DNA from: a virus | Strand: one strand, 5' to 3' | IMG/VR virus record: IMGVR_UViG_3300005617_000735 | Coordinates: 1-29,324 of that record | Length of the DNA stretch: 29,324 nucleotides | Shown here: positions 3,704 to 28,402 of the stretch, piece by piece | Position numbering within the stretch: the first letter of the stretch is position 1 | Layout: every line of letters begins with the position of its first letter | Program-made: the position numbers and the translations under genes | Notes under the pieces: model-generated | What the model was told of the DNA's origin: nothing | What the model saw: the letters and a program-made list of their open reading frames with translations, nothing else | Databases searched by the model: none

Positions 3704-4477
3704 ATGCGAAATCAAATTACAAAAATGCAACCCGCCTTGCCGATTCCAACTCCAACAACACTTTTGGAGAAGGCAATTGAAAAGGGTGTGGATATGGCTC
3801 AGCTTAAAGAGCTGATGGATTTGCAGGAACGATGGGAAAAGAAAGAAGCGAAGAAAGCCTTTCTTGATGCGCTTTCCAATTTTCAATCAATGGTACCTGA
3901 ATTAAAAAAGGGTAAGACTGCAAAGATTAATTCACAAAAAGGAAGCTTCTCTTACAAATACGCAGACCTGGGCAGCATCACGAAAGCCATCAATCCATTT
4001 TTGAGAGAATGCGGTTTGTCATACACCTGGGATTTTAAAGAGAAAGGTGATAAGCTGGAAGTAACCTGCCATGTAAGCCACAGGGATGGCCATGAACAAA
4101 CAACAAGCATGGAAGCCGGCAAAGACATGAGCGGCGCCAAAAATGATATTCAGCAGAAAGGCAGCACGCAAACATACCTGCAACGATATACGCTCATCGG
4201 AGCCCTGGGACTTTCAACCGCGGATGAAGATATTGATGGCAAGGGCGGCAGTACCACACAGCAGGAACAGAAGCAACAGCCGGAACAGACTGAAGACGAG
4301 GCGCTGGAACAATGGGCTGAGCTTCTTAAAGCCACTTCCAGGCAAGTTGAGCTTACCGGCCTATATATGAAAAATAAAAAAGCTGTGGATGGATGGGATA
4401 AGCTAAAGGCCATGTTCAAAGACCGGCAGGAGGAATTGAAACAAAATTTTAAACCTGAAAAAGTTTCAATGCCATGA
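3704..4477 (+). CDS. erf: ERF-family single-strand annealing protein
   Basis: 257 residues. After a helical N-terminal region, residues about 82-165 carry the ERF-family core: SYKYADLGSITKAINPFLRECGLSYTW, then a beta-rich stretch, then GSTQTYLQRYTLIGALGLSTADEDIDG, which is the conserved R-Y-x-L ... G-x-x-x-x-D-x-D end of the domain. The C-terminal third is Gln/Glu-rich and then Lys-rich, like the variable tails of SSAPs that bind partner proteins. Erf proteins anneal complementary single strands during phage recombination and replication. The stop overlaps the next gene by 4 bases, coupling it to the nuclease-motor fusion that presumably supplies 3' single strands. A second ATG at 3725 is an equally plausible start. 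Confidence 0.88.
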   Translation: MRNQITKMQPALPIPTPTTLLEKAIEKGVDMAQLKELMDLQERWEKKEAKKAFLDALSNFQSMVPELKKGKTAKINSQKGSFSYKYADLGSITKAINPFLRECGLSYTWDFKEKGDKLEVTCHVSHRDGHEQTTSMEAGKDMSGAKNDIQQKGSTQTYLQRYTLIGALGLSTADEDIDGKGGSTTQQEQKQQPEQTEDEALEQWAELLKATSRQVELTGLYMKNKKAVDGWDKLKAMFKDRQEELKQNFKPEKVSMP

Positions 4478-6549
4478 GCCAAAGTATATACAAAAGCTAC
4501 GAGATAGAACAGCTTGAAGAGCTCTTTTCCCAATTCCTGGTTGACAGTTGGAGCCATTCAAAGATTACAGCCTTCTCCCGTAACGAAAAGGCGTTTGAGA
4601 TGAATTACATTTTTGGCCTTTATTCCAAAAAATCCGCTTCATCTGTCGCTGGCCAGGCGTACCATAGTGCACTTCAATATTATTTCACTCAAAAGAAAGA
4701 AGGAAAGAAAATTGACCTGGTGGAGTGTGAACAGGCGGCATTCCAATATATCAGTGAAGTGCACGGCAATTCGTGGAAGCTACAGAAGACCACGCCCACT
4801 GTGGAAGAGTGCCAAATAAAAGCCAGTAAAACTGCCAGTGACCTGCTTAAAAACTTCTTTGGCGAATTATCAACATACGAAGACAGAATTAAGGAAGTGT
4901 TGGAAGTAGAAATTAAGTTCAGCGAATTCCTGACTGTTAACGGTGTGGATATTCCTTTGCCGTGTCATGGTATAATTGACCTGGTTGTAAGAACTCATGA
5001 TGATACAATTGTCATCATTGACCATAAATCAAAGGCTACATTTTCTGATGATGAGGAAATAGCCCTGTCAATCGGTGAACAGGCAATGACCTACGTTCTG
5101 GGATACGAATCAAAGACTGGCCAGCATGTTGACGAGGTTTGGTTCGTTGAGAATAAATATTCAAAAAACAAAGACGGCAGGCCGCAGCTGAATTTGTTCA
5201 GTGTGGAAACGACTCCCGATAACAGAAGGCTTTATGAGGCTTTGCTGTATGAACCATTGAGCCGCATGGTCGCGGCGGTTAATAACCCGGACTACGTGTA
5301 CTTAATTAATCCTTCAGACAATTTTGTTGACAAAGCTGAGCTATACGACTTCTGGTGCAGAACAATGATTGCAGAGGTGGATGATTTTAATGTGGATGAG
5401 ACCAAAAAGGCAATGGTTTCAAGACGCCTGAAGAAAATCCGCGATAGTTCAATCGCTTCAGTAAGCCCGGCCATCATAAAAACTTTCCGGGAGAATGCCT
5501 CACAATTTATTCAATACGATTTATCAAACAAGAATATGACAAACGAAGAAAAAATTGAGCACGTGCTGCGTTCATTCGGAATTATCGTGCAGGTAGCACA
5601 CAAGTTTGAAGGCTATAGCAGCAACACCTTTTTACTTTCTGTGTCTGCAGGTGTAAAAGTATCTTCTGTGTTCAGCAGGCGCCTGGACATTGCCAATGCG
5701 CTTGATGTTTCAAATGTGCGCATCTCACCCGAAATGGTAGTATATGAAGGCAAATCATACCTGTCTGTGGACTTTAGCAAAAAACGTGAAAAGGATTTAT
5801 TCTTTGACCCCTTACTATTAAAGGGTCAACGCATACCCATCGGTAAGGACAACTTCGGTGAAATAATCGTTTGGGATTGGAACAATCATTCTACACCGCA
5901 CATGCTTGTTTGCGGTGCCACAGGTAGTGGTAAATCAGTTTCTATTCAATCGACCATTGAATATGGCCGCCTGGTAGATGCGGATAACATTGTCATCATG
6001 GACCCCAAACATGAATTCACTTATTACAAAGGGCAAAGGGGCATAAAGGTTTTCAATGAAATTGAAGATATAGAAGATGAGATGGCAAAGCTGGTTGAAT
6101 TCATGAATGAGCTGGAAAAAAAAGGAAAGCAAACAAGGACACTTATTGTCTTCGATGAGTTTGCGGATGCGGTTGCTCAGTCACGCAGTGCAAAAGAGTT
6201 GCGGGCCTTCGGGGCAAAATCCCTGGAAGAAAATTTGCGCATACTTCTACAAAAAGGCCGCTCGTCTGGTTTCCGCATCCTGGCTGCCACACAAAGAGCT
6301 TCTACAAAAGTTATTACCGGTGATGCAAAAGTAAACTTCCCGGTTATGGTTTGCTTCCGTGTACCAAAAGAAATCGATAGTAAGGTTGTTTTGGACGAAC
6401 CAGGTGCTGAAGGATTGGCTGGCCGTGGTGACGGGTTGATGAAATCACCTGAGTATATACAAACTGTCCGCTTCCAGGCCTTTTACAAAGACAATGGCCA
6501 AGCTGTTGTAAAACACTCGCACATTTCTGATGCAATAATTGTTGACTAA
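4474..6549 (+). CDS. RecB/Cas4-type PD-(D/E)XK nuclease fused to FtsK-type DNA translocase
   Basis: 691 residues, two enzymes in one chain. N-terminal nuclease: G-x-x-x-H at 60-64 (H64), acidic residues near E145, D169 in GIIDL, D183-H-K185 in IIDHKSK, and Q203-A-M-T-Y207; this is the motif order of RecB/AddB/Cas4-group nucleases. A helical linker runs to about 355. Residues about 362-435 read as the FtsK beta domain (FGIIVQVAH...GVKVSSV...DIANAL...VRIS...YEGKSYLSVDF). The motor has Walker A GATGSGKS (481-488), Walker B LIVFDE (557-562), and the FtsK-like ATQRAS and GAEGLAGRGDGLM. There are no transmembrane helices and no gamma domain. By analogy with HerA-NurA and AddAB, a DNA-end resecting machine working with Erf is inferred. 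The junction is in frame with no sign of a frameshift. Confidence 0.85.
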   Translation: MSQSIYKSYEIEQLEELFSQFLVDSWSHSKITAFSRNEKAFEMNYIFGLYSKKSASSVAGQAYHSALQYYFTQKKEGKKIDLVECEQAAFQYISEVHGNSWKLQKTTPTVEECQIKASKTASDLLKNFFGELSTYEDRIKEVLEVEIKFSEFLTVNGVDIPLPCHGIIDLVVRTHDDTIVIIDHKSKATFSDDEEIALSIGEQAMTYVLGYESKTGQHVDEVWFVENKYSKNKDGRPQLNLFSVETTPDNRRLYEALLYEPLSRMVAAVNNPDYVYLINPSDNFVDKAELYDFWCRTMIAEVDDFNVDETKKAMVSRRLKKIRDSSIASVSPAIIKTFRENASQFIQYDLSNKNMTNEEKIEHVLRSFGIIVQVAHKFEGYSSNTFLLSVSAGVKVSSVFSRRLDIANALDVSNVRISPEMVVYEGKSYLSVDFSKKREKDLFFDPLLLKGQRIPIGKDNFGEIIVWDWNNHSTPHMLVCGATGSGKSVSIQSTIEYGRLVDADNIVIMDPKHEFTYYKGQRGIKVFNEIEDIEDEMAKLVEFMNELEKKGKQTRTLIVFDEFADAVAQSRSAKELRAFGAKSLEENLRILLQKGRSSGFRILAATQRASTKVITGDAKVNFPVMVCFRVPKEIDSKVVLDEPGAEGLAGRGDGLMKSPEYIQTVRFQAFYKDNGQAVVKHSHISDAIIVD

Positions 6550-7574: not shown

Positions 7575-9068
7575 ATGAAGACCTTAAAAGACTTCACCCC
7601 GGAAATCCAGGCTAAAATACCTGAATACATTAAAAATTATACTGCCGGTATATATGACGGCGGGCGTTACAAATCATTTGAGTTATCAAAGGCTGAGGCG
7701 CATGTTAACTGGAATTATGAAACTTCCGGCTATAAAAAACCAGTAGTAATAGTTGCGGAAAACCCAAAAGAAATGCAAGTTTTTTTCAATTGGATAAAAG
7801 CTAACAAAGAATTTCAGCTTCCGCTTTACCTTCTTTATGCCGCAAAAAACAATATAGAACTACCGAAGATAGAGGACTCACAGCTTGACTCACAGCTTCG
7901 CTCACAGCTTGGCTCACAGCTTCGCTCACAGCTTTACTCACAGCTTGACTCACAGCTTGACTCACAGCTTGACTCACAGCTTGACTCACAGCTTCGCTCA
8001 CAGCTTGACTCACAGCTTGACTCACAGCTTGACTCACAGCTTCGCTCACAGCTTGACTCACAGCTTCGCTCACAGCTTGGCTCACAGCTTGACTCACAGC
8101 TTCGCTCACAGCTTCGCTCACAGCTTGACTCACAGCTTGACTCACAGCTTGACTCACAGCTTGACTCACAGCTTGACTCACAGCTTGACTCACAGCTTCG
8201 CGTGGTAAATTCTTACGGCCTATTTACATGCGATATATACTCAAACGTGTACGCCGCGTGGTTCAAGTTCATGAAAGATGAATTTAAGCTTGATAGCAAG
8301 ATTGGTGTAATGCTGGACCAGTGGGATGCGCTTTATAAGGAGTCAGATATCTACACTGCAGTGTTTTCTGAACTGGTTTGTGTTGTCTGCAAATACCCAA
8401 AGCAAATACATGTAGATGAAGAAAAAAGATTGCACAGTGTGACCAGCCAGGCTGTTGAATGGGGGAACTCCACTGAATTAACCAAATGGGATTGCCATTA
8501 TATACATGGCGTTCTTATCGAACCTGCCTTATTTGAAAAGCTTTCCAGCAAAGAATTAACATTTGAGGACTGGGCAAAAGAGGAGAACGAAGAAATTAAA
8601 TCTGCCATGCTCGCTTTCATGGAAGAAAGATGGGGTGCCGAATTTCTGTTCAGATTTATTTCAAAACACCTAAAGGAGGTAAATACCTATACCGATAAAA
8701 AGGATGAAAGATACCTGGAAGGCACAACCAAAGGAATGAACATCGGTGTGTATACCCTCTTTAAAGGCAGAGTGAATGATATCGATATGGCATTTGTAAG
8801 ATGCTATTGCCCTTCTACTGACAGATTGTTTTTCTTGTCTGTCAGCCCGACTAATACAAATGCAAAGGATGCAATTGCCAGCCTATATCGCGTTCCATCA
8901 AAACTCGTCAAATACATAAAAAGCATATCAAGGCAGGGTGAACGTTATTTCACTGTTTTCACAGATGAGGGCAATAAAGTGTTGGACAATCTCACCAAAC
9001 CTGAAATCGAAGATTTAAAAAGCATTACAGGTAAAGAATATTTCTCTCTCATGACTTACGAATATTAA
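7575..9068 (+). CDS. Protein with 27 tandem X-Ser-Gln-Leu repeats (DUF6745-like architecture)
   Basis: 497 residues in three parts: an N-terminal domain (1-100) ending in a helix, a 108-residue block of 27 tetrapeptides of form [D/R/G/Y]-S-Q-L (residues 101-208), and a 290-residue C-terminal domain with conserved-looking blocks (WDCHYIHGVLIEPALF, FVRCYCPSTDRLFFLSVSP, AKDAIASLYRVP). The overall plan, with a central tetrapeptide-repeat tract between conserved ends, recalls DUF6745 proteins (repeats such as R-D-Q-V), a match from memory only. No catalytic motif or signal peptide is visible. The repeat is encoded by a 12-base DNA unit, so copy number can change without frameshift. Function unknown. 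Confidence 0.8.
   Translation: MKTLKDFTPEIQAKIPEYIKNYTAGIYDGGRYKSFELSKAEAHVNWNYETSGYKKPVVIVAENPKEMQVFFNWIKANKEFQLPLYLLYAAKNNIELPKIEDSQLDSQLRSQLGSQLRSQLYSQLDSQLDSQLDSQLDSQLRSQLDSQLDSQLDSQLRSQLDSQLRSQLGSQLDSQLRSQLRSQLDSQLDSQLDSQLDSQLDSQLDSQLRVVNSYGLFTCDIYSNVYAAWFKFMKDEFKLDSKIGVMLDQWDALYKESDIYTAVFSELVCVVCKYPKQIHVDEEKRLHSVTSQAVEWGNSTELTKWDCHYIHGVLIEPALFEKLSSKELTFEDWAKEENEEIKSAMLAFMEERWGAEFLFRFISKHLKEVNTYTDKKDERYLEGTTKGMNIGVYTLFKGRVNDIDMAFVRCYCPSTDRLFFLSVSPTNTNAKDAIASLYRVPSKLVKYIKSISRQGERYFTVFTDEGNKVLDNLTKPEIEDLKSITGKEYFSLMTYEY
7875..8198 (+). repeat. Tandem repeat, 27 units of 12 bp
   Basis: Twenty-seven consecutive 12-base units, consensus GACTCACAGCTT, with no insertions. Bases 3-12 (CTCACAGCTT) are identical in every unit; only the first two bases vary, giving codons GAC (17 times), CGC (7), GGC (2) and TAC (1). 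Units 22-27 are six identical GAC units. It lies inside the coding frame 7575-9068 and encodes X-S-Q-L tetrapeptides. Confidence 0.97.
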
Positions 9069-11957: not shown

Positions 11958-12269
11958 ATGAAACGAAATGAAATATGGGCCGCTGTGGAATTGGAATTAC
12001 GCTCAGCCAAGAAAAAACACCCTAATTACCCGGACCACGTTTGTGGCCAGGCGGGGATAGTAGTCGAAGAGGCTGGTGAATTAATGAGGGCTGCATTGGA
12101 TTGGAAATATGGCCGTGCAGAGACACCTGAAGAGCAACACGGTCAGCTGATGGAAATGCAACAGGAAGCCATTCAAACCGCAGCTAGCTGCATCCGCTTC
12201 CTGGAGAACATAGGTAAAACAAAAACAAAGGCAGAAGAAGCGAAGGAACTCTCAACCGAATTACTATGA
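11958..12269 (+). CDS. MazG-like / NTP-pyrophosphatase family protein
   Basis: 103 residues. The core VVEEAGELMRAALDWKYG has the E-E-x-x-E signature of MazG-like nucleotide pyrophosphohydrolases, and a second helix EAIQTAASCIRFLENI fits the partner metal-binding position, although the usual ExxD is E-A-I-Q. MazG-type enzymes hydrolyse nucleoside triphosphates or ppGpp. In phages they are thought to alter nucleotide pools or the stringent response. The gene lies between two methyltransferases and overlaps the next by 4 bases, which suggests a link to DNA modification or base pool sanitation. Confidence 0.68.
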   Translation: MKRNEIWAAVELELRSAKKKHPNYPDHVCGQAGIVVEEAGELMRAALDWKYGRAETPEEQHGQLMEMQQEAIQTAASCIRFLENIGKTKTKAEEAKELSTELL

Positions 12270-14818
12270 TACCGTACGAACAGTTTTTACAGAATAAAGT
12301 GAAGCTTGCGCAGAGTACCGGTTTCTTAATTGAAGATTCCGATATCAGTCCATTTATTAAGCCTCACAATAGATTAATGGTAAAATGGCTGGTGAATGGT
12401 GGGCGCCGGGCTTGCTTTGCTGCATTTGGTTTACATAAGACGGTTACTCAGCTGGAGACATTGCGCTGCACATTATTGCATACAGGCGGCCGCGGGCTTA
12501 TCATTGCTCCTTTGGGAGTGAGACAAGAATTTATCAAAGATTCAGTTAATATTTTGAAATGGCCAACACCACCAAAGTTTATACGTCGGATTGAAGAAGC
12601 TGATGAGACTGGTATTTACATTACCAATTATGAAACGGTTCGTGACGGTAAACTTGACCCACGATTGTTTGATGCGGCTTCTCTTGACGAGGCTTCCATA
12701 CTCCGTGGTTTTGGTGGTTCAAAAACATTCCGTGAATTCATGCGACTATTCACCGGTGATGCCGGCCCGAACGGCAACCGTCGCGGCACGCAATGTGTCC
12801 CTTACCGATTCGTTGCCACTGCTACACCAAGCCCAAATGATTACATAGAGTTGCTGGCATACGCGGACTTTTTGGGAATAATGGATGTAAGCCAGGCTAA
12901 AACAAGGTTCTTCAAAAGAGACAGCACGCAGGCTGATAAACTCAAACTGCATGCACATAAAGAAGAAGAGTTCTGGTTATGGATGGCATCCTGGGCATTG
13001 TTTATATCAAAGCCTTCTGACCTTACGTGCAATATTGCTGATGATGAGGGTTACATTCTTCCACCCTTGGATGTTCGCTGGCATGAAATACCATCGGACC
13101 ATTCAACAGCTGGCGCTGAAAAGAACGGACAGCTGCGACTGTTGAAAAAAATAACGAGCGGTTTATCAGATTCAGCAAAAGAGAAACGCGAAAGTCTCCC
13201 TGCCAGGATTCAAAAAGTATTGGAACTCCGTGAAGAGAATTTATCCGCCCACCGAATTATCTGGCATGACTTAGAGAATGAAAGATATGCCATTGAAAAA
13301 TTATTGCCCGATTGTAAAACAGTTTATGGCAGTCAGCCCCTCGAGGACCGCGAAGAGATTGTCGCAGGATTTAGTAATGGTACCGTTGCAGAAATAGCCG
13401 GCAAACCTTCGATGATTGGTTCTGGTACCAACCTGCAGCGATATTGCTCCTGGTCCATTTATGCCGGCATAGGATTCAAATTCAACGATTTTATACAAAG
13501 CGTTCACAGGATTTACCGATTCCTTTCAGCGGGCCAGTGTCGCATTGATTTGATTTATACAGAAGCTGAACGGGACATCCGAAAACAGTTGGAACGCAAA
13601 TGGTCACAACACAATAAAATGGTTCAAAAAATGACAGACATCATACAAAATTTTGGTCTTTCACAGGTAGCAATGGCCAATCTCCTTACCCGTAAAATTG
13701 GTGTTGAAAGGATAGAAATCAACGGTGACCGATTCACCTGTGTACACAACGATGCAGTACTGGAAGCTAAACGGCTTGAAGAAAATAGTGTTGGCTTAAT
13801 TTTCTCTTCCATTCCTTTTTCAACGCAATACGAATATTCGCCCAACTATTCTGATTTTGGTCACTCGGACAACAATGATGAGTTCTTTAACCAGATGGAT
13901 TATTTAACCCCCGAGTTATTTAGATCTCTGCAGCCTGGGAGAATAGCAGCCATCCATGTAAAAGACCGGATTGTACCAGGTGGCATGACAGGCCTGGGCT
14001 TTCAAACCGTGTATCCGTTCCACATGAAAACATTCATTCATTATACAAAGCACGGCTTTCAATACCTGGGCATGAAAACCATTGTCACTGATGTGGTAAG
14101 GGAAAACAATCAAACATACCGGTTAGGCTGGACTGAGCAATGTAAGGATGGTAGCAAAATGGGAGTGGGTATGCCCGAATACCTCTTACTTTTCCGTAAG
14201 CCGCCAAGTGACACCAACAATGCATATGCTGATGTTCCTGTCGTAAAATCAAAAGATGATTACAGTCTATCCCGATGGCAAGTAGATGCGCATGGTTACA
14301 CTCGAAGCTCCGGCAATCGCAGACTGGATATTGATGAGCTGGTAGCCTTGCCGCATGACAAAATATTTAAAATATTTCGTGAGCATTCATTGAATGAAAT
14401 CTATGATTTTGAATACCATGTCAAAATCGGTGAAGCGCTGGCCGCTGAAGGAAAGCTACCGACCACGTTCATGCTATTGCAGCCGCAAAGCTGGAGTAAT
14501 GAAGTTTGGACTGACATCACCCGCATGCGGACGCTGAATGGTTCCCAATACAGTAAGGGTAAGGAAATGCATCTATGCCCTATGCAGCTGGATTTAGCTA
14601 CCAGGGTTATCACCCAATTTTCAAATGAAGGAGATATTGTTCTGGACCCGTTTGGTGGACTTATGACGGTACCATCGGAGGCTATTAAACTTGGCCGGTA
14701 TGGTATGGGCTTCGAGCTGAACCACAATTATTTTTTTGATGGTGTGGCTTATTGCAAGGCTGCTGAATCAGCAGTTAAAACGCCCACATTGTTTGACCTC
14801 ATAAATGAAGCATCCTGA
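12266..14818 (+). CDS. SF2/SNF2-like helicase fused to beta-class DNA methyltransferase
   Basis: 850 residues. N-terminal helicase: motif I-like AAFGLHKTVTQLE (K58, T59) where the normal Walker A glycine is His57, motif II DEAS (141-144), motif III ATATPSPND (184-192), and motif VI QSVHRIYR (411-418). C-terminal methyltransferase (about 490-850): motif IV SIPF (515-518) followed by TQYEYSPNYSDFG, and motif I LDPFGG (793-798) near the end, the order of beta-class N6-adenine or N4-cytosine enzymes. The usual SPPF/DPPY is SIPF. P1 DarB is a known helicase-methyltransferase fusion, in a different domain order, that protects incoming DNA; such a role is inference. The GLHKT motif suggests a reduced or altered ATPase. 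It overlaps the next helicase by one base (TGATG). Confidence 0.82.
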   Translation: MIPYEQFLQNKVKLAQSTGFLIEDSDISPFIKPHNRLMVKWLVNGGRRACFAAFGLHKTVTQLETLRCTLLHTGGRGLIIAPLGVRQEFIKDSVNILKWPTPPKFIRRIEEADETGIYITNYETVRDGKLDPRLFDAASLDEASILRGFGGSKTFREFMRLFTGDAGPNGNRRGTQCVPYRFVATATPSPNDYIELLAYADFLGIMDVSQAKTRFFKRDSTQADKLKLHAHKEEEFWLWMASWALFISKPSDLTCNIADDEGYILPPLDVRWHEIPSDHSTAGAEKNGQLRLLKKITSGLSDSAKEKRESLPARIQKVLELREENLSAHRIIWHDLENERYAIEKLLPDCKTVYGSQPLEDREEIVAGFSNGTVAEIAGKPSMIGSGTNLQRYCSWSIYAGIGFKFNDFIQSVHRIYRFLSAGQCRIDLIYTEAERDIRKQLERKWSQHNKMVQKMTDIIQNFGLSQVAMANLLTRKIGVERIEINGDRFTCVHNDAVLEAKRLEENSVGLIFSSIPFSTQYEYSPNYSDFGHSDNNDEFFNQMDYLTPELFRSLQPGRIAAIHVKDRIVPGGMTGLGFQTVYPFHMKTFIHYTKHGFQYLGMKTIVTDVVRENNQTYRLGWTEQCKDGSKMGVGMPEYLLLFRKPPSDTNNAYADVPVVKSKDDYSLSRWQVDAHGYTRSSGNRRLDIDELVALPHDKIFKIFREHSLNEIYDFEYHVKIGEALAAEGKLPTTFMLLQPQSWSNEVWTDITRMRTLNGSQYSKGKEMHLCPMQLDLATRVITQFSNEGDIVLDPFGGLMTVPSEAIKLGRYGMGFELNHNYFFDGVAYCKAAESAVKTPTLFDLINEAS

Positions 14819-16437
14819 TGGTACAAGAAAAGAAACTTTGGGAATATCAGGAGCGGTCGGTCAATCTGACTATTGCAAAGTTTGGCAACAACATCCGCAG
14901 GGTTGTTTTCCAGATGGCGACAGGAGGGGGTAAGTCCCCTTGCTTTGTAACGATGAGTCACCGGTATACCCAAAAGATGAAAAACCGTGTTCTCATTCTT
15001 GTTCACAGGGAGGAGTTGTTGCAGCAGGCGAGAAAGACTTTATACAACTGGTATGATATCACCTCCGCCGCTTTGACCGCTGAGACCGAATATTTACCCA
15101 ATTACCAGGTGGTAGTAGCCATGGTGGAGACGGCTTTTAACCGGCTCAAAAAGAACCCAAATTATTTTGGAGAGGTAGGCTTGCTGATAATTGATGAGAC
15201 ACATAGGGGGGAGTTTAAGAAGCTATACCCGCATTTTCCTAATGCGTTTATCTGTGGTTTTTCAGCCACGCCAATCAGTGGCAAAAAAGATGATCCACTG
15301 AAGAACCATTTTGATGATATCGTATGCAGCATAGACATCCCCGAATTGATAGAAATCTGGAGGGCGGACCATACACAAGGCCTGGTACCGAACAAAACCA
15401 AGTGCATGTCATCTGTTGACCGGGATAAGCTTTCCATAAAAGGTGGTGAGTTCGTAGATAAGGAAATGCAGGAAGAATATAAAAAAGCCAAGCACGTTCA
15501 GAATTGTCTGTACGCATATAAGACTTTTTGCGACGGTAAAAAGACCATCATTTTCAACACCGGATTAGAGCACAATCAAAAAGTATATGAGGTATTCAAA
15601 GCGGCCGGTTACCCGGTAGAAATGGTAGACGGTACCACGCCCAAAGAAATCAGAAGAGGGATTTTTAAATGGTTTAAAGAAACTCCTGGTTCTATATTGG
15701 TGAATTTTGATATCGCTACCACAGGCAATGACGAACCAAGCGTGGAAGCCGTTATTACAAACTTCTCTACAAAATCCCTTACTAAATGGTTACAGACAAC
15801 AGGACGCGGGGGCAGACCTCATCCAGGCAAAGAATTGTTTCACATAATAGACCTCGGGGGAAACGCCGTAGAGCACGGTGACTGGAGTGATGCGCGTGAT
15901 TGGAAAGATATTTTCTTCCGCCCTGAGAAAGCAAGAAAAAAATCTGATGAAAAGGTTGGAAAGGAGTGTAAAAACTGCCACGCGCTTATAAAAATCGGTG
16001 TAAATATTTGTCCTGAATGTGGCCATGAGAACCGCGAAAAAAGGCAGAATGTATATGATAATGGTCCGGCCACTTTTCAAGATTTTAGTGGTAAACTTTT
16101 GCCAGAGGTTGATATTGAAACATTGATTATTGAAACGATGAACAACAAAATGTACTTCGCCCTTCACAAAATAAAGGCTGCTATCATCACCCATGTAAAA
16201 TACAAATGGAGAATACGCCGGGGTAAGATGACCGATGAAATCGCTGAGCAGATATTGTCTCACTATAACCAAATGGTATATCTGTGGCTTGAAATCGGAA
16301 AAGAAAAGTTTGGTAGGTGGCCCGATAAGCATGGAGACAGTTGGATAAGGAACGGCGCCTGGCATCAAAAGATGGCTGGCCAGTGGATGCGTGAGGCACT
16401 GGAAAAGGAATTTGAATGGCCGGCAATAGAAGTATAA
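14818..16437 (+). CDS. DEAD/DEAH-type SF2 DNA helicase with zinc ribbon
   Basis: 539 residues. Walker A ATGGGKS (34-40), motif Ia VHREELLQQ (62-70), motif II DETH (126-129), motif III SAT (149-151), and motif VI QTTGRGGRP (326-334) are intact, so an active SF2 ATPase is expected. C384, C387, C398 and C401 form a zinc ribbon. The C-terminal 130 residues are an unassigned helical domain. It resembles type III/ResIII and XPB-like phage helicases. Starting on the stop of the helicase-methyltransferase fusion, it may cooperate with it, supplying the ATPase power that the GLHKT variant may lack. Roles in replication or recombination are also possible. Confidence 0.86.
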   Translation: MVQEKKLWEYQERSVNLTIAKFGNNIRRVVFQMATGGGKSPCFVTMSHRYTQKMKNRVLILVHREELLQQARKTLYNWYDITSAALTAETEYLPNYQVVVAMVETAFNRLKKNPNYFGEVGLLIIDETHRGEFKKLYPHFPNAFICGFSATPISGKKDDPLKNHFDDIVCSIDIPELIEIWRADHTQGLVPNKTKCMSSVDRDKLSIKGGEFVDKEMQEEYKKAKHVQNCLYAYKTFCDGKKTIIFNTGLEHNQKVYEVFKAAGYPVEMVDGTTPKEIRRGIFKWFKETPGSILVNFDIATTGNDEPSVEAVITNFSTKSLTKWLQTTGRGGRPHPGKELFHIIDLGGNAVEHGDWSDARDWKDIFFRPEKARKKSDEKVGKECKNCHALIKIGVNICPECGHENREKRQNVYDNGPATFQDFSGKLLPEVDIETLIIETMNNKMYFALHKIKAAIITHVKYKWRIRRGKMTDEIAEQILSHYNQMVYLWLEIGKEKFGRWPDKHGDSWIRNGAWHQKMAGQWMREALEKEFEWPAIEV

Positions 16438-19563: not shown

Positions 19564-19863
19564 ATGATTACAAAACTCAAACCCACCATGTCAACCGTAG
19601 TAGATGCCGTTCTCAGTCACAAAGGTATGGCTTTGCATGAAATACAACTCAATACTCGGAAGAGGCCTGTGGTTTACGTAAGACAATTGACCATGTATAT
19701 GCTAACCATGTATACAAACATGAACCAAAGGAAAATTTCAGAGTTATTCAACAAGGACCATACGACAGTGATTCATTCTGTACAGACTATTAATGACCTA
19801 TTGTGTTATGATGAGGGGGTTAAGAATGATGTGGCAGCAATTAAAATACTGATAGGGGAATGA
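19564..19863 (+). CDS. Stand-alone DnaA domain IV-like DNA-binding protein
   Basis: 99 residues. The C-terminal two-thirds (RKRPVVYVRQLTMYMLTMYTNMNQRKISELFNKDHTTVIHS, about 32-72) match DnaA domain IV: a basic loop-helix, a helix-turn-helix, and the signature N-K-D-H-T-T-V-I-H-S, close to the R-D-H-T-T-V-I-H-A of DnaA that contacts the DnaA box. The AAA+ ATPase and domains I-II are absent. So it should bind DnaA-box-like sites but not open DNA by ATP-driven assembly. It might act as a competitor of host DnaA or as a co-initiator at the phage origin. It lies 10 bases after dnaB and overlaps the next gene. Confidence 0.84.
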   Translation: MITKLKPTMSTVVDAVLSHKGMALHEIQLNTRKRPVVYVRQLTMYMLTMYTNMNQRKISELFNKDHTTVIHSVQTINDLLCYDEGVKNDVAAIKILIGE

Positions 19864-20276
19864 AAAAGCCAGTTATCCGAATAGAAGACTTCCGCAACAC
19901 AGCAGCTGCCAGGCTCAACAAGCACCTATTTGAAGAGCCGTCGCCTGCCCCGCAGGAAGAAAAGAAGAAAGGCAAATTCGGCAACAATATCACTTATGTT
20001 GACGGTATTCCTTTCGATTCACAGAAAGAAGCAAAGCGTTACCGGGTTTTACGCAAGGCCCTGAAGGAAGGAAAAATTAGTTTTCTGGCTAGGCAGGTCC
20101 AGTTCGAGCTAAATGCACCGGGCACCCATAGCTTAATCTATGAGGCTGACTTCACCTATACCACTGCTGATGGAAAACAAATCGTGGAAGACAGTAAAGG
20201 CCACAGAACCCGGGAATATTTAAAGAAAAAGCGCTTGATGAAAAAAGTGCATGGCATTGAAATACTTGAAACATGA
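19860..20276 (+). CDS. DUF1064-type phage nuclease (PD-(D/E)XK-like)
   Basis: 138 residues. After a charged lead, NNITYVDGIPFDSQKEAKRYRVL is the start of the DUF1064 domain (the E of 'S-Q-K-E-A' is conserved), and YEADFTYTTADGKQIVEDSKGHRTREYLKKKRLMK contains the E-x-D...E-D-x-K core that makes DUF1064 PD-(D/E)XK-like. Such proteins are common in phages, and are suspected of resolving branched DNA. It overlaps the DnaA-like gene by 4 bases and the next gene by 4 bases, in the replication operon. Cleavage activity is by family analogy only. Confidence 0.8.
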   Translation: MKKPVIRIEDFRNTAAARLNKHLFEEPSPAPQEEKKKGKFGNNITYVDGIPFDSQKEAKRYRVLRKALKEGKISFLARQVQFELNAPGTHSLIYEADFTYTTADGKQIVEDSKGHRTREYLKKKRLMKKVHGIEILET

Positions 20277-23067: not shown

Positions 23068-24072
23068 ATGCGCATAATCGCTTTTGTACATAAAGACTCT
23101 GGCCCTTGCTTCCACCGAATCATTATGCCACTCATGCTCATGGATGGCCCGGATGTCTTCATCACCAACAACCTACTGGAAGAACACTTTGAAAAAGGAT
23201 GCGACCTATTTATCTATAACAGGGTGCTGCCGATAGAGCAAATGCCGAAGATCCACGAACTGCAAAAAAAACATGGCTTTAAAATCTGCGTGGATATTGA
23301 TGATTACTGGCTGCTCGATGAGCACCATATTCTTTACCGGGATTACCTGCGTGAGGGTTTTGCGGCCCACCAGATACAGCACCTGAAAGATGCGGATGTT
23401 GTTCTCACCACTCACGAACGGCTGGCAGAAGAGGTCCGCTGGTTCAATACCAATGTGCACGTATGTCCTAATGCCATACCGCATTTAGGACAGTATGATA
23501 TCGAAAGAGAGCCTTACTATTTAACGCGGCTATTCTGGCAAGGGAGTATCACTCACCAGGAAGATATAAACCTGCTGGGCGTTCCATCTTACCGGCTCAA
23601 TACAATCTCACCCAAAATAAAGATGGTCATGGCTGGGTATTGCGAAGAAGATACCTGGTATAAAATGGCGAAGACCTACACGGCGAACCTCAAACACCAG
23701 TACAAGTTAATCCCGGCGCTGCCTATCACCAGCTATTACGAGGCATACAAAGACGCAGATATCTGTCTGGTACCGCTAGTTAACTCAATGTTCAATCGGA
23801 TGAAGAGCAACCTGAAAGTATTGGAAGCCGCGAACCTGGGATTGCCGGTGGTGGCATCGGACGTCCACCCTTATAAGGAAATGCCATTGCTCTATTGTAA
23901 GAACAGTTCAGACTGGATAAACCACATTACCCGGCTGGTTAAAAGTAAGAAGCGGCAGAAAGAGGCAGGGCAAGAGTTGCAGGAGTTCTGCCAGGAGCAT
24001 TACAATTTCCATAAGATTAATAATGCCCGCAGAGAGATACTGGAATATGCGGCATCAAAAATAGGAATATGA
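23068..24072 (+). CDS. GT4-like glycosyltransferase
   Basis: 334 residues, GT-B type. The N-terminal domain (IIAFVHKDSGPCFHRIIMPLMLM) with DIDDYW, and the C-terminal domain with FNRMKSNLKVLEAANLGLPVVASDVHPYKEMP, hold the usual donor-binding acidic segment (E253 in VLEAANLG) of GT family 4-like enzymes. The expected acidic and loop residues are in place and the chain length is typical. It would transfer a sugar from a nucleotide donor to an unknown acceptor. It is the first gene of an overlapping cassette that runs to the large terminase. No signal peptide: it acts in the cytoplasm. Confidence 0.84.
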   Translation: MRIIAFVHKDSGPCFHRIIMPLMLMDGPDVFITNNLLEEHFEKGCDLFIYNRVLPIEQMPKIHELQKKHGFKICVDIDDYWLLDEHHILYRDYLREGFAAHQIQHLKDADVVLTTHERLAEEVRWFNTNVHVCPNAIPHLGQYDIEREPYYLTRLFWQGSITHQEDINLLGVPSYRLNTISPKIKMVMAGYCEEDTWYKMAKTYTANLKHQYKLIPALPITSYYEAYKDADICLVPLVNSMFNRMKSNLKVLEAANLGLPVVASDVHPYKEMPLLYCKNSSDWINHITRLVKSKKRQKEAGQELQEFCQEHYNFHKINNARREILEYAASKIGI

Positions 24073-25687: not shown

Positions 25688-25899
25688 GTAGTTTGATTGA
25701 CAAGCTGGTGATTGTGAATCTCAAAATATTCAAGGCAGAGGATATTAAGCGCGAGCCAGGAGCCACCGATAAAACCATTGCCGATGCCACCCGGGCAACC
25801 AATGGGCTCAATCAGCAGCGCAACGATTTGATAAACGAAATAAACGAACGGCTGGGCGATAAAACCAATTCAATAAAGCTTTATGGTAGAACTACTTAA
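25675..25899 (+). CDS. DUF4254-like small protein
   Basis: 74 residues. The opening TVGSLIDKLVIVNLKIFKAED and LNQQRNDLINEINERL resemble the helical DUF4254 proteins that I recall next to glycosyltransferases in Bacteroidota polysaccharide clusters. Overlaps both neighbours (13 and 17 bases). The link to sugar enzymes in the cassette supports the reading. Function unknown. Confidence 0.55.
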   Translation: MDTVGSLIDKLVIVNLKIFKAEDIKREPGATDKTIADATRATNGLNQQRNDLINEINERLGDKTNSIKLYGRTT

Positions 25900-27073
25900 T
25901 CTCGGAGAGATATATGTGAGCGATTTTCTAAAACCAGGCGAAGAACCTGGAATTAAGCATGAGCTGAAACTCGTGCTGGATGAAAAAATAGGAGCTCCAC
26001 GCCTTGAAACAACCGCTCCGCTGAGCAGTATGTTTGGTAAATACTGGTACCGGTCAGGAACGAATGAGACAATGAAGGCGGCGCTGAAGGACGTGGTGGA
26101 TAGTATTTTACCGCATGTAAATTCAAACTATGGCCAGGGATGGTTTGATATCGCAGGAAATGACGGAACACTACTATCGTTTGTTCCGGATAATTTTATT
26201 CGCTTTAATATCGACCCTTGCGAAAAAAGCATCTATAGTCAGTCGCAAAGTCATGCAATTGTTTTTAATGATTACTTTAAAAAGGAACTGGTAAACGGTA
26301 TGCAGGCTGCGGTTATCACCACCATTGCAATGTTTTATGATATCGAGGATTACAGCACTTTTGTTAAAGACGTATACGAAGTACTGGCTGAGGGTGGAAT
26401 ATGGGTTTTGCAGCTCAGCTATACGCCATTGATGATTCAGCAGCTTGCATTTGACAATATTCTTTCAGAGCATGTTTACTACCATAGCTTGTCATCTATG
26501 AAGAAGGTGCTAGAGCCTAACGGGTTTGAGATAGTGGATTGTACACTCAATGATGTGAATGGTGGTTCATTCAGAATATTTGTGAAGAAAAAAGGACAGC
26601 CATTTGCCACTCAGCAATACCAGGATGTGTGCAAATTCCGTATGGATTCATTGCTGCGCATGGAAAATGAGATGCGGCTTGATAGTGTAATAACCTGGGC
26701 AGAATTTGATAACAGACTTCAAATACTGAAATATGATATCACAACAACCATCGCCCGCCTTGTGCAGGATGGCAAAACAATAATGGCATACGGAGCCAGT
26801 ACAAAGGGTAACACGCTCCTTCAGTACTTTGGTCTGGATAATACGCTAATCACAGCAATAGCCGAAAAGCAAGAATGTAAAGTTGGTCTGAGAACTATTG
26901 GAACTGACATCCCGATTATATCTGAACGGGAAATGCGGAGATTAAAGCCGGATTATCTGCTAATACTTCCGTGGCATTTTATTGATGAGTTTGTGAAACG
27001 GGAAGCTGATTACCTAAACGATGGCGGAAAATTCATTGTGCCGCTGCCCAAATTAAAAATCATAGAACGATAG
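25883..27073 (+). CDS. Sugar C-methyltransferase-like enzyme (EvaC/TylC3 architecture)
   Basis: 396 residues. LNLGEIYVSDFL and MFGKYWYRSGTNETM match the N-terminal part of EvaC/NovU/TylCIII enzymes. WFDIAGNDGTLLSF (87-100) is the SAM-binding loop. EHVYYHSLSSMKKVLEPNGFEIVDCTLNDVNGGSFRIFV is the conserved middle. MAYGASTKGNTLLQYFGLDN and the later IGTDIPIISE are the C-terminal domain. The family's N-terminal zinc-binding cysteines are absent. These enzymes C-methylate nucleotide-linked deoxysugars; here the product would presumably be transferred by the cassette's glycosyltransferases. Overlaps the previous gene by 17 bases and precedes the large terminase. Confidence 0.76.
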   Translation: MVELLNLGEIYVSDFLKPGEEPGIKHELKLVLDEKIGAPRLETTAPLSSMFGKYWYRSGTNETMKAALKDVVDSILPHVNSNYGQGWFDIAGNDGTLLSFVPDNFIRFNIDPCEKSIYSQSQSHAIVFNDYFKKELVNGMQAAVITTIAMFYDIEDYSTFVKDVYEVLAEGGIWVLQLSYTPLMIQQLAFDNILSEHVYYHSLSSMKKVLEPNGFEIVDCTLNDVNGGSFRIFVKKKGQPFATQQYQDVCKFRMDSLLRMENEMRLDSVITWAEFDNRLQILKYDITTTIARLVQDGKTIMAYGASTKGNTLLQYFGLDNTLITAIAEKQECKVGLRTIGTDIPIISEREMRRLKPDYLLILPWHFIDEFVKREADYLNDGGKFIVPLPKLKIIER

Positions 27074-27076
27074 TCT

Positions 27077-28402
27077 ATGGTTAGAGAAATAAATTATACC
27101 CGCCCTCCCTTATATAGCTACCAAAAAGAAATCATTGATAGTCCAGCCAGATATACGGTAACACTTGCATCCACCAAGGTTGGTAAGACGGCATCCCATG
27201 TTGTATGGCTTTTTGAAGAGGCTCTTCAGTGTGGCGCCAAGCCAACTATGCGGCAAACGGTGATGAAAGAAGATGGCGGCAAAGTAATCTTTATTCAAAA
27301 TACTGACCCGGGGCTGCTTAACTTATCTGTGTGGTGGGTAGCCCCTACATTTGGGCAGGCAAAGATTGCGTATGGTCGTATGAAGAGCCAGCTCAGCGAT
27401 AGAGATTTCTTCACAGCGAATGAAACAAATCTTATTATTACATTGATTACCGGTGTTAAAATCCATTTCAAGACTGCAGAGAAGCCGGATAATCTTTATG
27501 GTGATGATGTATATGCTATAGTCTTTGATGAGTTTACCAGGGCGCGAGAGGCCGCATGGTTTGCATTACGCTCCACACTCACCAGCACCGGTGGAAAATG
27601 TAAGTTCATTGGCAATGCCACTTCAAAGAAGAATTGGGGAGTAAAACTGGCAATGCGCGCAAAGGCCGGTCAGGAAAAGGATTATCAATATTTTAAGATA
27701 ACAGCCTATGATGCTGCGGCGGCGGGTATGAAAACAAAAGACGGTAGGCCATTCATTGAGGAAATTGAAGCGGCAAAGAATGACCTTCCAGAGGCTGTGT
27801 TTAATTCTCTCTATATGGCGGAAGCCAGCGAGGATGGTAACAATCCTTTTGGTCTGAAGTATATTTCTGCTATCTGTTATCCGACATTGAGTAGTCAACC
27901 GTCTGTATGCTATGGGGCCGATGTGGCCAATAAAGTAGATAGCTGCTCAATCATCGGTTTAGATAAGCTCGGAACAATGAGCCACTATCAAAACTTTAAG
28001 CGAACAGGATGGCCGCATGTGATTGCAACGATACAACATCTGCCACCAAAGCCTGTGGCCATGGACAGTACAGGCGTCGGTGATGTGGTGCTGTCACAGG
28101 TGCAGCAATCAAGGTCTGATGTAGAAGGTTATATCTTCACCCAACAGAGCAAGCAGCGTTTAATGGAGGGCCTCGCAGTTGGCATCCAACAACGCAAACT
28201 GCTAATCGCGGATGATGGAGATGTAATTAATGGTACTGGAAAACTCCGTCACCAGCTGGAGCAATTTGAAATAACTTATACACGCACAGGGGTAGTATAC
28301 AGTGCACCGGAGGGTGAGCATGATGATGATGTCTGCGGGCTGGCGCTTGCATGGCACAAATGGCAGACGGCGCATTCTGGCGGAGAGATTTCTGTTTGGT
28401 AA
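27077..28402 (+). CDS. terL: Terminase large subunit
   Basis: 441 residues. Walker A ASTKVGKT (31-38), Walker B AIVFDEF (147-153, with D151 and E152), and a nuclease domain with acidic residues D282 (YGADVANKVD), D330 (MDSTGVGD) and D416-418 (HDDDVCGLA). It has both ATPase and nuclease parts required for packaging. About 35 residues (51-86, QCGAKPTMRQ... to ...WWVAP) separate the Walker A helix from the next strand, more than in many terminases. Its small-subunit partner lies 5.6 kb upstream, before the sugar cassette. The ATG at 27077 is 3 bases after the previous stop. Confidence 0.9.
   Translation: MVREINYTRPPLYSYQKEIIDSPARYTVTLASTKVGKTASHVVWLFEEALQCGAKPTMRQTVMKEDGGKVIFIQNTDPGLLNLSVWWVAPTFGQAKIAYGRMKSQLSDRDFFTANETNLIITLITGVKIHFKTAEKPDNLYGDDVYAIVFDEFTRAREAAWFALRSTLTSTGGKCKFIGNATSKKNWGVKLAMRAKAGQEKDYQYFKITAYDAAAAGMKTKDGRPFIEEIEAAKNDLPEAVFNSLYMAEASEDGNNPFGLKYISAICYPTLSSQPSVCYGADVANKVDSCSIIGLDKLGTMSHYQNFKRTGWPHVIATIQHLPPKPVAMDSTGVGDVVLSQVQQSRSDVEGYIFTQQSKQRLMEGLAVGIQQRKLLIADDGDVINGTGKLRHQLEQFEITYTRTGVVYSAPEGEHDDDVCGLALAWHKWQTAHSGGEISVW

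Follow-up and report, generated by a model that had tools for sequence, protein, structure and literature searches.

A nuclease and an FtsK-type motor in one open reading frame

The window analyzed here—the whole 29,324 bp of a virus record, IMG/VR entry IMGVR_UViG_3300005617_000735—contains an Erf-like gene and, sharing 4 bp (ATGA) with it, a second frame (4474–6549) that encodes, without an internal stop, a single protein of 691 amino acids (aa), hereafter the fusion. The fusion is confirmed to consist of a RecB-type PD-(D/E)XK nuclease followed by an FtsK alpha–beta motor without a gamma domain (Table 1). Pfam models above their curated cut-offs match both halves, namely PDDEXK_1 (PF12705; residues 25–227, E 1.9e-14), FtsK_alpha (PF17854; residues 351–431, E 4.2e-8), and FtsK_SpoIIIE (PF01580; residues 454–495, E 2.4e-8), and the PHROGs matches are an FtsK/SpoIIIE-like family (residues 308–677, E 2.5e-46) and an exonuclease family (residues 26–240, E 2e-16). 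Among the Pfam matches of the fusion up to an E value of 1, there is no model for the gamma domain with which FtsK/SpoIIIE chromosome translocases read FtsK-orienting polar sequences (KOPS)—the motor match ending near residue 677 of 691—and none for YqaJ (PF09588), NurA, or a UvrD-type helicase; in NCBIfam, no family was above its cut-off.

Table 1. Coordinates of the fusion gene, its domains and motifs, and the gene upstream of it in the window. Conservation counts refer to alignment A2, which holds 84 of 88 rows at 90% identity, frames outside 660–745 aa being excluded.
Feature	Position	Strand	Basis
Erf-like single-strand annealing protein	3704..4477	+	phrog_155, E 1.2e-41
Nuclease–FtsK fusion protein, 691 aa	4474..6549	+	open reading frame
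PD-(D/E)XK nuclease domain (RecB/AdnA-type), residues 14–300	4513..5373	+	Pfam, VIA fold match
Nuclease motif I, H64	4663..4665	+	conserved 84/84
Nuclease motif II, D169	4978..4980	+	conserved 84/84
Nuclease motif III, D183-H-K185	5020..5028	+	D and K each 84/84
QxxxY motif, Q203–Y207	5080..5094	+	Q 84/84, Y 83/84
FtsK alpha domain, residues 355–436	5536..5781	+	Pfam PF17854, E 4.2e-8; fold
FtsK beta (RecA-like) motor domain, residues 437–675	5782..6498	+	PHROG 1358, E 2.5e-46; FtsK fold
Walker A, GATGSGKS, 481–488	5914..5937	+	K487 84/84
Walker B, ending D561-E562	6139..6159	+	E562 84/84, D561 83/84

An initial annotation, made from the letters of the window, had placed a nuclease and an FtsK-type motor in one chain. 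Each half, considered separately, indeed matches a family both by sequence and by fold, and the residues that it named (H64, D169, D183-H-K185, Q203-xxx-Y207, Walker A at 481–488, and Walker B ending in D561-E562) lie where it had put them. Its "FtsK-like beta domain plus motor" was right as to the motor and is corrected to an FtsK alpha domain followed by the beta (RecA-like) motor. A stop or frameshift between the domains, which it had named as a possible objection, is absent. Furthermore, the fusion is a single frame in its relatives, with one exception described below, and a second IMG/VR record (54,608 bp) encodes a 100% identical fusion protein within DNA that is 99.9% identical over 8,042 bp; therefore, a sequencing join or a lost stop is very unlikely.

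The AlphaFold2 model of the fusion, built with the 84-row alignment, has a mean predicted local distance difference test (pLDDT) score of 87.6 and a predicted template modeling (pTM) score of 0.52, with the C-terminal tail falling below a pLDDT of 50. In VIA-align comparisons, the motor part (residues 355–677) superposes on FtsK 2ius with a Z score of 33.2 (root-mean-square deviation, rmsd, 2.6; 307 residues; 29% identity) and on 6t8o, FtsK bound to a DNA end, with a Z score of 33.1; HerA motors match at 19.9 (4d2i) and lower. In the nuclease part, residues 23–300 match the putative exonuclease 3l0a (Z 16.3, rmsd 3.5, 220 aligned) and residues 14–297 match AdnA 9np6 (Z 16.3, rmsd 3.9, 241 aligned), and the Foldseek matches of the fusion include Dna2 and Argonaute-associated Cas4-family nucleases. 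A profile search of the PDB with the fusion matched the motor only.

Within the nuclease half, H64, D169, D183, K185, and Q203 are invariant in the 84 aligned fusions, as are K487 and E562 in the motor, with Y207 and D561 kept in 83; the PF12705 match and the H, D, D-x-K, and QxxxY motifs that characterize the PDDEXK_1 type are thus found together. The Cas4 and AddB iron–sulfur nucleases carry four conserved cysteines. In the fusions, cysteine exceeds 40% of rows only at columns 113 (61/84) and 164 (65/84) of the nuclease and at 480 and 627 of the motor, and the label "RecB/Cas4-type" used in the initial annotation therefore keeps its first part and loses its second, RecB/AdnA-type being, by sequence, the better name for the nuclease.

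The FtsK alpha–beta motor is represented in the fusion by its domains, its fold, the Walker A and B motifs, and the arginine finger, R596 (equivalent to FtsK R620; kept in 83/84). The FtsK DNA-contact residues R632, G640, and K643 correspond to R608, G616, and K619, each kept in 84/84; this correspondence was counted by hand along the profile alignment, and the residue roles are those given for FtsK in PMC7321959. Both domains, their catalytic residues, and an FtsK fold with most of its DNA-contact residues are thereby seen in the sequence or the model.

Relatives of the fusion and their upstream partners

Relatives were collected by protein and profile scans, which contributed 8, 79, and 22 loci; among these 109 loci are the window (L009) and seven records counted twice. 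The scans used short peptide patterns, and those of the two profile scans both come from the nuclease half; the set is therefore a lower bound that is biased toward close relatives. The fusion frame is present in 108 of the 109 loci, L087 being the one without it (54 matched residues, at the end of a contig), and reduction at 95% identity leaves 90. The exception to the single frame is L066 (2104–4213), in which a frameshift or a sequencing error splits the fusion into two overlapping frames of 566 and 145 aa; in L008, L074, and L076, the fusion is cut by the contig end. In L075 (3784–6684), an in-frame insert of about 280 aa, matching Intein_splicing and HNH_3, lies within the Walker A motif, between the positions equivalent to 484 and 485.

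Bacteroidota names (Chitinophagaceae, Flavobacteriaceae, Bacteroidales, and others) are borne by 21 of the 22 loci from bacterial genomes, and the other (L090) is a 4.9-kb contig of a metagenome-assembled genome labeled Sedimentibacter, perhaps a binning error. Judged by these sequences, the nuclease–FtsK fusion is carried by a phage family with close kin in Bacteroidota genomes. Only one of 395 drawn Bacteroidota genomes contains the fusion (E 1e-60), and that one is the genome used as the center; therefore, the elements that carry it are, on this count, rare. In searches of 50,697 phage and 72,556 plasmid records, none matched at least 80% of the fusion, and in the former, all annotated, tblastn with the nuclease half alone found nothing at E values up to 0.01. 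A description of a nuclease–FtsK fusion was not found in the literature searched, which was short of subscription papers and included passages of PMC5512222, PMC8190038, and PMC8987985.

The genes upstream of the fusion in the 90 non-redundant loci were sorted with profiles of their clusters, with family names taken from representatives; because L006 starts at a contig edge, upstream sequence is available for 89. The commonest partner is phrog_3657 (cluster c0a; 24 loci), a phage family annotated as of function not known, followed by a Sak4-like ATPase and RecT (phrog_148) with 16 loci each, c0b (11), Erf (7), a second RecT (phrog_561) and Rad52/Sak (4 each), the phrog_15333 group (3), Bet-like proteins (2), and the single protein of L055; one locus (L054) has none. 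An annotated annealing family thus lies upstream in 33/89 loci, and an annotated, Sak4-like, or candidate RAD52-fold partner adjoins the fusion in 73/89. Three partners were set by hand: in L047, in which the start assigned to the fusion frame lies too far upstream; in L070, in which the c0a gene is 1.6 kb upstream; and in L062, in which an HNH endonuclease gene (5474–6001) sits between the RecT-like gene and the fusion. Partner and fusion overlap by 4 bp in 49 of 87 measured cases and by 1 bp in 13, and the overlap or gap is within 20 nt in 82; one of these spacings (L070) was measured to a neighboring 152-aa gene, which is not the annealing protein. On the downstream side, the commonest family occurs in 13/90 loci.

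Some of these labels are weaker than others. The Sak4-like label comes from phrog_124 (E 8e-4 and 2.5e-7), the best match of the group being phrog_1366, of function not known, with AAA_24 at E 2.9e-12; Pfam assigns the Rad52/Sak group to Rad52_Rad22, whereas PHROG calls it "Erf-like"; and the c0b and L055 proteins have no meaningful profile match. Profile–profile comparison detected kinship between RecT and Bet (90.9%) and, over 44 columns only, between c0a and c0b (85.5%), and none among the other partner groups, for which deeper structural kinship is possible. By sequence, then, the partners comprise at least six families without detectable kinship, namely Erf, RecT/Bet, the second RecT, Rad52/Sak, the Sak4-like ATPase, and phrog_3657.

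On a quick maximum-likelihood tree of 84 of the 90 fusions—with 20 of the 81 internal branches drawn open, and with L006 and L054 (no label) and L008, L066, L075, and L076 (outside 640–750 aa) excluded—the partner label changes at least 36 times, compared with a least possible number of 9 and a mean of 53.4 for shuffled labels. Thus, the label is partly inherited, yet the annealing protein appears from this tree to have been exchanged repeatedly while the nuclease–motor stays. The initial annotation had called for a search for homologues with both halves and for their co-occurrence with Erf; such homologues do exist, and they lie beside an annealing or recombinase-like gene. The coupling to Erf that it proposed holds in the window, where the annealing gene adjacent to the fusion is indeed Erf (phrog_155, with the 4-bp overlap), but not as a specific partnership; with Erf upstream in only 7/90 loci, an Erf-specific system was rejected.

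The position behind phrog_3657

The phrog_3657 family, for which at least 582 stretches were matched in viral contigs (for example, L043:5177–5992), was examined by structure prediction. Its model (pLDDT 85.3) gave no plain Foldseek match at E 0.001, the top rows being unrelated. After VIA re-ranking, RAD52 stood in the first eight rows at Z scores of 8.1–6.8, which are at the edge of the meaningful range of the tool, and Sak (6.5), Mgm101 (6.4), and Red-beta (5.4) appeared further down, amid unrelated rows. These model comparisons are suggestive of a RAD52-fold annealing protein.

A reverse scan was then made with phrog_3657, covering the best 80 of the at least 582 loci and judging the longest frame that starts directly behind the phrog_3657 gene. 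One of the 80 (L038) was a locus already known to carry the fusion; the other 79 were examined with near-copies kept. A lambda-exo/YqaJ-like cluster occupies the position in 41 of them and another YqaJ in 3, and the fusion does so in 17, many of which are records already in the first set. In an 18th fusion locus (L189), the fusion lies 1.6 kb further on, with an RNase_T-type gene intervening. The rest comprise a DUF3799/PDDEXK_1 nuclease (1), further RNase_T-type genes (2), other genes (9, of which four belong to one unnamed family and five are single), and loci without a frame to judge (5). Two representatives of the 41-member cluster match YqaJ; of its 34 members in Pfam-tested records, 20 match PF09588 at E 0.001, and the remaining members are linked to these by BLAST and, with the exception of L150, by a profile of the positives.

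In the records tested, the two kinds of nuclease were not seen together. PF09588 was matched in 0/50 fusion records (of 70 listed) and in 24/50 fusion-less phrog_3657 records (20 of them above the cut-off; of 61 loci without the fusion seen), which gives a rough Fisher p value of 3e-9, and in 0/11 fusion records with a phrog_3657 partner (p 0.002, likewise rough); bacterial genomes with the fusion had 0/14. Conversely, a fusion match was found nowhere in the 50 fusion-less phrog_3657 records (0/50) with a query that finds itself in the window. According to PMC8093625, the neighbors of RecT genes are YqaJ, DUF3799, or RecE exonucleases, and in Firmicutes phages, RecT genes adjoin YqaJ or DUF3799 nucleases. 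That the fusion has a partner slot, that its partner has changed repeatedly, and that lambda-exo-type exonucleases use the slot as well is seen in the sequences. Because the slot is common to the lambda-exo/YqaJ-like cluster and YqaJ was not matched in the fusion records tested, gene content indicates that the fusion most likely fills the exonuclease seat.

Putative end resection, its rivals, and known systems

Taking sequence, model, and analogy together, we consider it probable that the fusion supplies the exonuclease of a phage annealing–exonuclease pair and brings its own motor, so as to carry out ATP-driven end resection in a single chain. The initial annotation had suggested such a compact machine serving Erf, and the suggestion is supported here, the strongest added evidence being the slot that the fusion shares with lambda-exo/YqaJ-type exonucleases. 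In the proposed mechanism, an FtsK-type ring—FtsK motors being hexamers—would assemble on a double-stranded DNA end and pump the duplex through itself, in at the beta side and out at the alpha side. The nuclease domains, being fused at this exit, would receive the emerging DNA and degrade one of its strands, probably the 5′ one. The leftover single strand would be loaded with the annealing protein from the overlapping upstream gene—Erf in the window, and RecT, Rad52/Sak, Sak4-like, or other proteins in the relatives—and would then enter strand-annealing recombination of phage DNA. The hexamer, ATP-driven resection, strand polarity, motor–nuclease coupling, and hand-over to the annealing protein are what we infer by analogy. 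In FtsK, DNA travels from the beta domains toward the alpha domains (PMC7321959), which, with the nuclease N-terminal and next to the alpha domain, would place the nuclease at the DNA exit. Similarly, PMC9960219 holds that HerA feeds DNA through its exit to NurA, and that NurA digests the 5′ strand when translocating.

Several observations weigh against this interpretation. The pTM score of the model, with lower pLDDT at residues 321–360, means that the placing of the nuclease relative to the motor is not fixed by the model. The loop I DNA-contact residue K657 of Pseudomonas FtsK is not conserved (E633 in the fusion, with the neighboring K632 in 78/84), and the position of FtsK R661 is lysine or arginine in 61/84 fusions. 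Patterns from the nuclease half would miss motor-only forms in the same slot, and the virus records are possibly fragments and not all independent. PF09588 misses divergent relatives, with 14 of the 34 tested cluster members lying in match-less records, and both 50-record sets were hand-picked and not matched for partner, which is why the p values are rough. In addition, the partner is unclassified in 15/89 loci (c0b 11, phrog_15333 3, and L055 1).

Other roles for the fusion have been weighed. Its motor might run on replicating or concatemeric phage DNA while the nuclease cuts junctions or flaps, and such branch processing would likewise fit a recombination operon; moreover, PMC7824862 compares the RecB-family domains of certain jumbo phages with resolvases of Holliday junctions. 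We regard this as unlikely, with a separate predicted Holliday junction resolvase present in the window (19860–20276; phrog_190, E 1.5e-28; DUF1064 in Pfam), a slot that is common mainly to lambda-exo-like exonucleases, and closest nuclease folds that are those of exonuclease and end-resection enzymes. It is distinctly less probable that the fusion is an attack or defense nuclease with a pump, aimed at the host chromosome, a competing phage, or a plasmid. Defense systems do include FtsK/HerA ATPases coupled to effectors, as in the solved SIR2–HerA and DUF4297–HerA complexes, and the PADLOC profiles mad8, SspH, and HerA match the fusion; however, these profiles match the motor only (residue 453 onward), and the fusion has a constant place beside an annealing or recombinase-like gene.

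There is a slighter chance still that packaging or concatemer untangling is the task of the motor, with the nuclease as an accessory. A stand-alone phage FtsK/SpoIIIE of the same PHROG_1358 has been proposed for packaging or concatemer disentangling (PMC13299392), but the fusion sits in a recombination slot and a candidate for the large terminase is encoded in the window itself (27077–28402; phrog_5909, E 2.6e-6; Terminase_6N, E 6e-4, below its cut-off).

The phage exonucleases that work with annealing proteins are regarded as lacking a motor. By a narrow preference, we lean toward regarding the fusion as a third design of end processor for recombination: an FtsK pump formed by six copies of one chain, each with its own nuclease, would draw in duplex DNA, remove one strand, and serve as a plug-in for many kinds of annealing protein, and the slot would expose phrog_3657 (with its RAD52-like predicted fold), c0b, and phrog_15333 as new annealing families. 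A motor-driven replacement that keeps to the lambda-exo slot while the neighboring annealing family is exchanged would open two questions to experiment, namely whether contact with the nuclease is required of an annealing protein and what resection gains from a motor. Furthermore, recombineering in Bacteroidota could gain a module from the fusion, and unannotated annealing proteins could be sought with its slot as bait.

Elsewhere in the window, a 497-aa frame (7575–9068) contains 27 copies of a 12-bp tandem repeat, GACTCACAGCTT (7875–8198). At 12266–16437, an 850-aa frame has matches to DNA methyltransferases as well as to a phage helicase family, and behind it lies a 539-aa helicase assigned to that PHROG. 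A glycosyltransferase (23068–24072) and a protein with methyltransferase domains (25883–27073) are also encoded.

Among known systems, Lambda Red, RecET, and YqaJ–RecT resemble the arrangement described here in that a nuclease gene adjoins that of an annealing protein, and in that the slot behind the same annealing-like family is shared. Lambda exo is motor-less, whereas the nuclease of the fusion is of the PDDEXK_1/AdnA type, lacks a PF09588 match, and is joined to an FtsK motor. AddAB, AdnAB, and RecBCD likewise chain a nuclease to a motor, and the nuclease of the fusion is of the same type as that of AdnA 9np6 (Z 16.3); the motors of these enzymes, however, are superfamily 1 (UvrD-like) helicases, unlike the FtsK-family double-stranded DNA pump of the fusion. 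With FtsK/SpoIIIE, the fusion has in common the alpha–beta motor, for which the comparison with 2ius gives Z 33.2 at 29% identity, but it carries a nuclease in place of the membrane anchor and linker of FtsK, and no gamma domain was found in it by Pfam. HerA–NurA, which resects 5′ ends (PMC9960219), also combines a double-stranded DNA translocase of the FtsK/HerA superfamily with a nuclease that is on the DNA exit side, as that of the fusion would be; it consists of two proteins with a NurA nuclease, in contrast to the one chain, PD-(D/E)XK nuclease, and FtsK alpha–beta motor of the fusion. Overall, the fusion would, by analogy, resemble HerA–NurA in its working and resembles lambda exo in its position, while belonging to neither by the features tested.

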